This document shows, one piece after another, positions 37,610 to 60,740 of a DNA stretch of 64,000 nucleotides. The translations under genes and the position numbers were made by a program. The first letter of the stretch is position 1. The number at the start of each line of letters is the position of its first letter. Source of the stretch: Clostridiaceae bacterium (GTDB taxonomy: Bacteria; Bacillota; Clostridia; DSM-8532); NCBI GenBank assembly GCA_012719545.1, contig JAAYAD010000069.1, positions 1 through 64,000 of the forward strand, written 5' to 3'. The notes below the pieces were generated by a model that was not told the DNA's origin, did not search any database, and worked only from the letters and a program-made list of their open reading frames with translations.

Positions 37610-38671
37610 ATGAGTAAAAGAAAAATAAATGGCTGGAAAATATTTGCCATAATTGAATTAATAATTATAATAATCATGGCTTCTGCCGGAATTTACGAAT
37701 TTTTTCTTAAAAAGAGCGATACCGCTCAGTTCGTAGGCCGCGTATTAAGCCCTGTGGACGGCGGAAAATCAATTCGTGAGCGCAGGCAGGAAACCAATAA
37801 GCCCTATAATTTGACAAAGGATTTAAAATACTATAAAAGCTTGGTTGATAAAGACAATATCAACGTGCTTCTCATTGGCCCTGATGAAAGCGGGGCAAAT
37901 TATGATACCCTCCTTATAGCCAGCATTGATGATAAAAATAATGTTGTAAAGCTTATTAATTTACCAAGGGATATTTATATAGAATACAGTTCGGAAGTAA
38001 AGTCCGCACTAAAAAAAGTATGGCCAAAATATTCTTCGTCAAAGGGCATTTATAAAATCAATGCTGCCCACACAATTGGAAAGCGAATAAACTATAAAGA
38101 CGGCCAGGGAAGGTTTAAGAATCCTGAATATGACTTTACTGCAGACCTTATTGAGGAGATTTTCGGAATATATATTGACGATTTTGTCTATATAAAGCCT
38201 TCCAGTGTAAGACGCGTAGTTGATTATTTCGGCGGCGTTCAAATTGATGTGCCGTACCTTATGAAATACAGCGATCCCACACAAAACCTTGAAATAAATA
38301 TTAAGAAAGGGCTTCAAACCCTTAACGGCGCTCAGGCTGAAGGATTTGTGAGATTCAGACAGGGTGTTGATGAAAAAGGCAAGCATGTTTCAATTGGCGA
38401 TATTGAGAGAAAAAAGAACCAGGTTGCATTTGTTAAAGCCTTTATGGATCAGCATCTTAACCTTAAAAACATAGGTAAGATTATCACAATATTTGAAGAT
38501 TTGGAGTCTTATGTTACCTCCAGTATTGACAATGCAAAAGAAGCAGGGGATTACGGTAAAGTTGCGGAGAAGCTTTACAAAAACAAATTTACTCAGGTCA
38601 GTGAGGAAATCGAATGTTCCAATACCAAAATCGGTGATGTTTATTACCTGAAACTGAAAGTTTCAGAATAA
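37610..38671 (+). CDS. LytR-CpsA-Psr family cell-envelope ligase
   Basis: A 353-aa LCP protein that probably transfers undecaprenyl-linked anionic or capsular glycopolymers to peptidoglycan. One N-terminal transmembrane helix (about 9-28) precedes the extracellular LCP domain, with NVLLIGPDESGANYDTLLIA, INLPRDIYIE and the basic segment ...AQAEGFVRFR with downstream DIERKKNQ. The start is ATG 37610 (GAGGA upstream). It is monocistronic and ends at a strong bidirectional terminator. Confidence 0.92.
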   Translation: MSKRKINGWKIFAIIELIIIIIMASAGIYEFFLKKSDTAQFVGRVLSPVDGGKSIRERRQETNKPYNLTKDLKYYKSLVDKDNINVLLIGPDESGANYDTLLIASIDDKNNVVKLINLPRDIYIEYSSEVKSALKKVWPKYSSSKGIYKINAAHTIGKRINYKDGQGRFKNPEYDFTADLIEEIFGIYIDDFVYIKPSSVRRVVDYFGGVQIDVPYLMKYSDPTQNLEINIKKGLQTLNGAQAEGFVRFRQGVDEKGKHVSIGDIERKKNQVAFVKAFMDQHLNLKNIGKIITIFEDLESYVTSSIDNAKEAGDYGKVAEKLYKNKFTQVSEEIECSNTKIGDVYYLKLKVSE

Positions 38672-58545: not shown

Positions 58546-59928
58546 TTATTTTTCAGCCGGATTTTCACATATGCCCATAAACAATAGGCTTCCGTCACGT
58601 GCTGTAATATAGTAGATAAAAGGGCGATTAAGAATCATCTCTGCTCTGCCTTCAGGCATGGCAGACCCTGAATAGTCAATTTGAGTAAAAGCTGATGCTT
58701 CAACACCGTCTTCATCAATGGAAATATGGGTTTCCTGCCGTATATCGGTAATATATGCCATGTGGTCTGTAATTCCGCTAAAGTCTGCGTCAGAAGCAAA
58801 AGCTGAGCTAACTCCAAGCCTTTTGAGGGCATCGGTCAATAAAAGTTTTGAACCAAATCCAAACTTGGGTATTTTCCATACAACCTCTCCATTGAAGTAT
58901 TCTCCTCCTTCGAAGGCTTCCTTCATTTTATCGGAAGATGCAAAAAAATCATATGGAGATACACCTTCGTCAGGCAGTATAAATACCATGTGTCCTGCGT
59001 TTTTAAGTCCCAGGCCAGCCCGGGTAAAACCTTCTCCTTTGCTAAATCCGGCCGAACCAAAAGTTTGATTCATAAAGTCTGCTTTTACTTCACTTCCATT
59101 GGAGAGATAAAAAGTATCCTCAGCAGTTTTGTTCTTATCAAAACGATTAATCCATTGATCATAAAAATAAACCGTGTTTAGGATTGATAATATTTGATCA
59201 GGATTTGTCTCAATTGATGGCGAAAGCGTCCCGTTTGTGTTTTTTGATATCCAGTTGGCCATAGCTTTACTTGTTTCTTGGCTGGAAAAGTCAACACTAT
59301 GGGAACTGGCGTAGAAATTCCTAGCCGCACGTTTCACAAAATCGTCCTTAAATGAAATGGGTTCACCATTCATATCATTATCGAGCCAAATTGAGTTGGC
59401 GATTTTAAGTTTTCCAATTTCATTGTCAGCATAAATCCTCCTGTAGTAATTGCCGCATTGTTCTTCCAGCACCTGAGCATCAGAAATGCCTAAGATATTA
59501 AGCAATTGAGTCTTTGTATCTCCATCTGCACCCGAGGCTGCAACAGCAAGAGCATAATATAAGGAAAGAGGAGAAAAATGGATGTTTTGGCCTTTATTCT
59601 CAAGTATAAGAGCACCCGTATTATATGAGAAATCATTAAGAGCAGTAATAAAGCTTTCGAGAACAGGATTTTGCTCCAATACTTCTCTTCTTGTATCATA
59701 GTCCTCAAATGCATATGCCCTGGGATAAATGACATCCAGAATAAGTCCAGAATTCTGAGTTCCATTTCTTAATACCAGAATCCTTGCGCAAAGCACCAAT
59801 AAAGCACACGCAGCAATAGCCATATATTTTCGCCATGAGTTTTTCTTTTTAAGCCTTGTCTTCATTGCTTCTTCTATAAACTCATCTCTAACATTCGTAA
59901 TAGCATCAAATATTCTTTTTTCCTTCAC
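58546..59928 (-). CDS. membrane-anchored serpin with an anti-sigma-like N-terminus
   Basis: A 460-aa protein. Residues 1-33 are cytoplasmic and charged (KRIFDAITNVRDEFIEEAM), resembling the short segment of proteins encoded behind ECF sigma factors. A transmembrane helix follows (about 34-53), then a full serpin domain (about 88-460), ending with the serpin signature NRPFIYYI and GSLLFMG. The hinge EDGVEASAFT starts at 406, so the predicted P1-P1' bond is near Ser422-Ala423. The GTG start overlaps the sigma factor stop (GTGA), with GGAGGG upstream. It could sense or trap extracellular proteases. Confidence 0.9.
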   Translation of the reverse strand: MKEKRIFDAITNVRDEFIEEAMKTRLKKKNSWRKYMAIAACALLVLCARILVLRNGTQNSGLILDVIYPRAYAFEDYDTRREVLEQNPVLESFITALNDFSYNTGALILENKGQNIHFSPLSLYYALAVAASGADGDTKTQLLNILGISDAQVLEEQCGNYYRRIYADNEIGKLKIANSIWLDNDMNGEPISFKDDFVKRAARNFYASSHSVDFSSQETSKAMANWISKNTNGTLSPSIETNPDQILSILNTVYFYDQWINRFDKNKTAEDTFYLSNGSEVKADFMNQTFGSAGFSKGEGFTRAGLGLKNAGHMVFILPDEGVSPYDFFASSDKMKEAFEGGEYFNGEVVWKIPKFGFGSKLLLTDALKRLGVSSAFASDADFSGITDHMAYITDIRQETHISIDEDGVEASAFTQIDYSGSAMPEGRAEMILNRPFIYYITARDGSLLFMGICENPAEK

Positions 59929-60482
59929 AGCCAGATGCCCTCCTTTTCAAGGTCATATTTAAGGCTTTGCCTAAGCCTGTACATGCGGCCGGCTAATTTA
60001 TTGGGTGTTGTTCCGCATTCGCCTGCAAGCTTATTTACTGAATCACCAAACCAGTACCTGCGCAAGAATAATACCCTGTCATCTTTGGAAAGCTTTTTTA
60101 GCCAATTGTTTATTGCCGCGGACAGCTCTTTAGCCTCTATTTCTCGTTCTACCTGGTTTGTGGAAGGAACACAATCAGAAAGCTCAGAAATAATAACTTC
60201 TGCGCCATTGTATCTTTTTAGTGCCCGGCGTTGGTGCCAGCGGTTAATTGATAGATTTCTCACAATACGTCCTAGATATGCCGCAAGGGAAATTGGTTTT
60301 TGCGGAGGCATTGTATTCCACGCTTTGCAATACGTGTCGCTAACGCATTCCTCACAATCTTCATGATTTGATAGAATATTAAATGCAATTGCATTAAGCA
60401 TTCCGCCATATTTTGAATTGCTTTCCAGGATTGCGGCCTCATCACGAGCCCAGTACAACTCTATTATCTCAATATCCTCCAT
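59925..60482 (-). CDS. ECF-type RNA polymerase sigma factor
   Basis: A 185-aa group IV sigma factor. Region 2 is at about 10-75 (DEAAILESNSKYGGML, SDTYCKAWNTMPP), and region 4 at about 120-175 with a helix-turn-helix (SVNKLAGECGTTPNKLAGRMYRL). The ATG 60482 has GAGGAGGAG upstream. It overlaps the serpin gene by four bases, so the two are made together; the serpin N-terminus is the likely partner. Confidence 0.9.
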   Translation of the reverse strand: MEDIEIIELYWARDEAAILESNSKYGGMLNAIAFNILSNHEDCEECVSDTYCKAWNTMPPQKPISLAAYLGRIVRNLSINRWHQRRALKRYNGAEVIISELSDCVPSTNQVEREIEAKELSAAINNWLKKLSKDDRVLFLRRYWFGDSVNKLAGECGTTPNKLAGRMYRLRQSLKYDLEKEGIWL

Positions 60483-60740
60483 GTGCTCCTCCTCTTTAAT
60501 ACAGAGAAACATTCATATATAAAGACATGAATAAAATGCAAATATTCGTACGGATTAAATTTTTTTAATTAATATTGGACTATTAGTTATCTAATTATCT
60601 TTATCTTAATGTACTCAATGTGCTGAATGCAACTTAGTTGTACGTTATATACCGACAGTTAAGACAGTTAGTATGAAACGAAGAGTATTGCAAGGGAAAT
60701 GATTAAAACCATTCGCTGAACCACTGAACTTATGTAGAAA
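60483..60740. other. intergenic region upstream of the ECF sigma factor
   Basis: About 260 bases, A/T-rich. I looked for an AAC/CGT-type ECF promoter and found none convincing. No ORF or repeat stands out. Confidence 0.3.

Follow-up and report, generated by a model that had tools for sequence, protein, structure and literature searches.

The window analysed here, a 64,000-nucleotide stretch of contig JAAYAD010000069.1 from a Clostridiaceae bacterium (assembly GCA_012719545.1), contains a gene for an extracytoplasmic function (ECF) sigma factor followed by a gene for a membrane-anchored serpin, which we propose to be the anti-sigma factor of this sigma factor (Table 1). The coordinates of the open reading frames and the shared GTGA confirm the initial annotation, according to which the sigma gene ends inside the start codon of the serpin gene. 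The sigma reading frame is also readable from position 60512; the ribosome site GGAGGAGC favours the start at 60482. As expected of an ECF sigma factor, its product consists of sigma regions 2 and 4 only. It matches Pfam Sigma70_r2 with 37.1 bits (E 2.7e-9) and the NCBIfam sigma70-ECF model with 55.8 bits against a cut-off of 42.9, while region 4 scored alone is weak (16.5 bits against a cut-off of 25.7). The closest relatives of the sigma factor are 63–65% identical to it. The coupled serpin is the only serpin encoded in the genome of the window.

The N-terminus of the serpin is short, basic and cytoplasmic, and is followed by one membrane helix and a complete serpin on the outside. This anti-sigma-like layout, first read from the sequence, is borne out by hydropathy and by the predicted model. 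Residues 97–457 match the Pfam Serpin family (PF00079) with an E-value of 1.3e-69 (235.7 bits against a cut-off of 27), and the predicted model (predicted local distance difference test, pLDDT, 84.7) aligns with solved serpins at Z up to 43 over 344 residues. The hinge, GVEASAFT, is intact and made of small residues; the extracellular part is a full serpin with a small-residue hinge, as had been described. The predicted model shows the reactive loop as disordered at residues 413–425. By spacing alone, the P1 residue would be at about Ser422, a small residue that would fit proteases preferring small residues. The zinc motif HxxxCxxC of the classical ZAS anti-sigma factors is absent from residues 1–60 of the serpin, again in line with the initial annotation.

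Homologues of the sigma factor were searched for in 391 clostridial genomes and relatives were found in 91 of them. In 94 of the 102 sigma neighbourhoods examined (locus L125, which had been mis-parsed, was left out), the next gene starts with the identical overlap of 4 nt. Almost every partner begins with a cytoplasmic module of ~35 residues resembling 'E.lf.AI..IDD.yIEEA....K' and one membrane helix, beyond which the sequences diverge. Because overlap and module recur in this way, and because serpin/ECF pairs are present in other families, the overlap in the window is more than a chance arrangement. The outer parts recognised by Pfam are few: serpin, leucine-rich repeats, beta propeller, DUF4179, DUF5643 and a bacterial Ig-like domain. 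Serpins account for four of 97 partners (the window and genomes G079, G359 and G334; families f1, f12, f15 and f36). The shared module, the single helix and the gene overlap are all present in the window serpin.

A profile of the module was built from 80 non-serpin partners and searched among 784 proteins. It matches the window serpin with 62.7 bits (E 8.5e-19), and the 34 cytoplasmic residues alone with E 1.4e-10. The profile also picks up the serpins of G079 and of Tissierella praeacuta; sigma-linked serpins score 62.7, 64.0 and 46.0 bits. None of the lipoprotein serpins tested in this set is matched, and the score is only 11.5 bits in a Herbinix serpin ortholog, which is without a sigma gene. 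Residues 1–34 of the window serpin are 62–65% identical to L078 and L108, two partners that are not serpins; their outer domains are unrelated, and their sigma factors are 65% (L078) and 58% (L108) identical to that of the window. Here the domain swap is seen directly: a similar sigma factor, the same putative sigma-binding end and a new outer domain. The comparison of partners shows the serpin recruited in the place of other putative sensor domains.

Covariation between module and sigma factor was analysed in 82 aligned sigma/partner pairs. Sixteen of the 30 strongest column pairs join sigma region 4 with module residues 5–25, where 4.3 are expected (binomial 6e-7, for column pairs that are not independent and sequences of shared ancestry). 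As a control, helix columns of the same proteins contribute two of the top 30 pairs, with 3.7 expected. The distance matrices of sigma factors and partners correlate at 0.29, and permutations reach at most 0.15. In known anti-sigma classes, the first helix binds sigma region 4 (PMC7406223). The search for co-evolving N-terminal residues proposed with the initial annotation has thus yielded a signal, which is indirect support for a contact between module and region 4. We also modelled an in-frame pair of G334 (L086) by reading its TAG as Q, as a modelling device only. All hits of a Foldseek search with this read-through model were ECF sigma factors already known, several of which are in complex with an anti-sigma factor.

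Pairing of an ECF sigma factor with a serpin has occurred in more than one form. The serpins of G359 and G334 are only distantly related to those of the window and G079. In a second kind of pair (G616 and G643), the gene of a SigV-like sigma factor overlaps that of a serpin whose N-terminus is different (MFRKLYKEANNDIEVDKSLKEST); the same kind is present in G612, where the serpin is broken. In a third kind (G200 and G260), another ECF sigma factor overlaps a long-stalk serpin, the sigma gene of G260 being interrupted by the end of the contig. Altogether there are eight sigma/serpin pairs, spread over seven families. The conserved linkage that the initial annotation proposed to look for holds across clostridial families; among the closest genomes of the same family it does not, and it has been lost repeatedly. 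In the serpin tree, sigma-linked types are interspersed among lipoproteins and plain anchored serpins, so that recruitment and loss have each probably happened more than once (the trees are quick ones, in which the placement of G200 and G359, both on long branches, is unsure).

Decay of the pair can be followed in several genomes. In T. praeacuta DSM 18095 (L065 5001–6205, L069 730–2265), a sigma remnant with three stops lies directly before a serpin that has kept the module and lost its middle; sigma factor and serpin, as read from these remains, have decayed together. A Herbinix metagenome-assembled genome and G647 have no such sigma gene upstream, and the module motif is also gone, while in G610 and G216 sigma fragments only precede an otherwise intact serpin. 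The module tends to disappear along with the sigma factor. Some of the decay seen in draft metagenome assemblies may be due to errors of assembly, whereas T. praeacuta is a cultured strain. Homology of the module to about 100 gene-coupled partners, its covariation with region 4 and the recurrent pairing make the role of the serpin as anti-sigma factor of the coupled sigma factor, put forward earlier as an inference, a well supported one at the level of sequence.

The nearest relatives of the sigma factor share a promoter, GAATAT-N14-TGTCTATATA, ~45 nt upstream of the gene, and the window carries a perfect counterpart (Table 1). Of 98 family members, 34 have an element like the –10 upstream, whereas shuffled sequences give 7.8. 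A scan of 1.6 Mb (54% of the genome), trained on seven sequences, gave 14 sites above threshold; among these, no intergenic site other than the one upstream of the sigma gene lies in the range of the training scores. Since this site is itself one of the training sequences, the telling point is the absence of other such sites. The simplest reading, suggested by the matching promoter and its singular position, is that the operon is autoregulated. A generic search for AAC-N-CGT promoters gave no excess. As a possible further target we considered positions 38166–38194, with perfect elements and a 13-nt spacer, and rejected it as probably due to chance, for it lies inside a coding gene (presumably LytR-CpsA-Psr-like, judging by eye).

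Table 1. Features of the sigma/serpin locus in the window
Feature	Position	Strand	Remarks
ECF sigma factor gene	59925..60482	-	185 aa
Overlap GTGA, 4 nt (sigma stop and serpin start)	59925..59928	-	
Membrane-anchored serpin gene, proposed anti-sigma factor	58546..59928	-	460 aa
Putative cytoplasmic anti-sigma module, residues 1-34 (KEKRIFDAITNVRDEFIEEA...)	59827..59928	-	partner profile; covariation
Transmembrane helix, residues ~35-54	59767..59826	-	hydropathy 2.45; helix 31-54 in predicted model
Hinge and reactive centre loop, residues 408-433 (GVEASAFTQIDYSGSAMPEGRAEMIL)	58630..58707	-	
Candidate autoregulatory ECF promoter GAATAT-N14-TGTCTTTATA	60518..60547	-	perfect match to relatives' elements

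Taken as a whole, the locus is best explained by a serpin that is a membrane anti-sigma factor and acts as a protease switch, an explanation in which we place somewhat better than even confidence. The cytoplasmic module of ~35 residues would bind the sigma factor, mainly at region 4, and keep it off RNA polymerase. An extracellular protease attacking the reactive loop would be trapped by the serpin, which would thereby change its shape irreversibly. By analogy with the anti-sigma factor RsiV, this change may expose the stalk to a site-1 cleavage, perhaps by signal peptidase, after which a site-2 protease would cut the helix and free the sigma factor. The freed sigma factor would then transcribe its own operon, as the promoter suggests, and newly made serpin would restock what had been consumed and switch the response off. 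A site-2 protease is encoded in the genome of the window (Peptidase_M50, E 7.6e-65); the same family is matched in 14 of 14 control genomes, hence its presence is weak evidence for intramembrane proteolysis. Sensing of proteases through cleavage of the reactive loop is plausible by the same analogy, and the fact that the same combination of module and serpin has arisen in several other bacteria suggests that the trap is used to notice protease attack. In a bolder version, which we offer as a tentative possibility, insertion of the cleaved loop would itself destroy the anti-sigma factor, so that the system would be a one-shot alarm: for each protease trapped one sigma factor would be freed, the operon would refill the serpin, and the device would have evolved repeatedly by domain shuffling.

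Several observations weigh against the favoured explanation. The closest serpins of the same family are either secreted or lipoproteins and lack a sigma factor. The linkage has often been lost while the serpin survives, so the serpin domain has value by itself, without the sigma factor. The covariation was computed from 82 related sequences, the promoter scan is limited to 54% of the genome, and in the read-through model of sigma factor and module the module helix has a pLDDT of 66–69, at which contacts are not readable. It is possible, although rather unlikely, that the protein is an anti-sigma factor whose serpin protects instead of sensing, with the release signal coming from elsewhere, for example from direct cutting of the stalk or from membrane stress. 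The persistence of serpin domains as lipoprotein or plain anchored forms without sigma factor agrees with this, since inhibition would then be useful alone, and the promoter suggests that the operon chiefly sets its own dose. However, the slot is otherwise occupied by diverse outer domains without a common effector, as would be expected of sensors, and serpins are present in it in several lineages.

The serpin might also be non-inhibitory and sense a ligand other than a protease, in the manner of the hormone-binding serpins of animals. The P14 residue is valine, P1 is uncertain, inhibition is only predicted, and cleaved corticosteroid-binding globulin is among the best fold matches, though all serpins score similarly. 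We regard this as improbable, because small hinge residues are retained in the sigma-linked serpins, and types A and C have a loop conserved around G-S/A-A. Still less credible, and in our view very improbable, is that the two genes are chance neighbours, the sigma factor merely transcribing a downstream membrane serpin that it does not bind. The closest relatives, in which linkage is missing, could be read in this way, but the homology of the module to the other partners, the constant overlap, the recurrence in seven families, the joint decay and the covariation all speak against it.

If a protease switch is indeed present, it would give bacterial serpins a role in signalling and would extend the RsiV principle, in which an inhibitor serves as receptor, from lysozyme to proteases. 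It would also mean that the consumption of a suicide inhibitor is counted by a sigma factor, which is a testable prediction. The wider family, which keeps the putative sigma-binding end and swaps the outer domain, offers a natural catalogue of sensors.

Some further observations concern this family. The neighbourhoods L077–L185 represent a large clostridial ECF/anti-sigma family with constant overlap and module and mostly unknown outer domains, and five genomes (G155, G220, G286, G334 and G376) contain at least eight matches to the sigma factor each. Two classes of –35 element, GCAACC (for example L089, L105 and L134) and GAATAT (for example L078–L082), appear to track sigma subclades and have the –10 GTNTATA in common; promoter specificity might therefore be predictable from the sigma sequence. 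On the reversed strand of G334 contig 14 (L215 1501–2946) there is a second module-bearing serpin without an upstream sigma gene, which may be an orphan anti-sigma factor or one that acts on another sigma factor (cross-acting). An apparent natural fusion of sigma and anti-sigma factor in G299 (L145 1275–2837) was rejected, as it results from a frameshift in sigma region 4 that gives one reading frame of 520 aa running into the anti-sigma gene, either a sequence error or a pseudogene.

The architecture as such, a membrane anti-sigma factor that carries a sensor domain, is a known one, in which a serpin as the sensor was not found described: our full-text searches of open-licence papers returned no description of a serpin anti-sigma factor, which agrees with the initial annotation. 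Tengpin, miropin and the synthetic conserpin have the serpin fold in common with the window serpin (tengpin matches it with E 1.2e-34 and a structural Z of 41), and to our knowledge none of them is fused to an anti-sigma module. In bifidobacteria, production of a serpin is tied to protease exposure via a two-component system, in which the sensor is a separate kinase and not the serpin itself. The class II anti-sigma factor CnrY (PMC7406223) likewise has a very short cytoplasmic segment whose first helix binds region 4. The resemblance to the window module is one of layout, with no sequence relation established here. CnrY is part of a metal-response system. In Bacillus thuringiensis, the membrane anti-sigma factor RsiP also holds an ECF sigma factor, sigma-P, which is released by the successive action of signal peptidase and a site-2 protease (PMC8844934); the outer domain of RsiP, however, differs from the window serpin, and RsiP responds to beta-lactams. 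The closest parallel in function would be RsiV/sigma-V of Bacillus subtilis. A DUF4179-like match in the window serpin, overlapping helix and stalk, is weak (16.4 bits, below the curated Pfam cut-off of 30.1), so that membership in the DUF4179/RsiV family (ECF30) was rejected, and the Pfam scan of the serpin gave no match to the lysozyme-binding domain; among the 97 partners, DUF4179 is matched in six at E up to 0.01. RsiV, itself a membrane anti-sigma factor, holds its sigma factor and with its outer domain both inhibits and senses the attacking extracellular enzyme, lysozyme; it is cut first by signal peptidase (PMC5014341, PMC6066255). RsiV binds lysozyme non-covalently, whereas the outer domain encoded in the window is a serpin.
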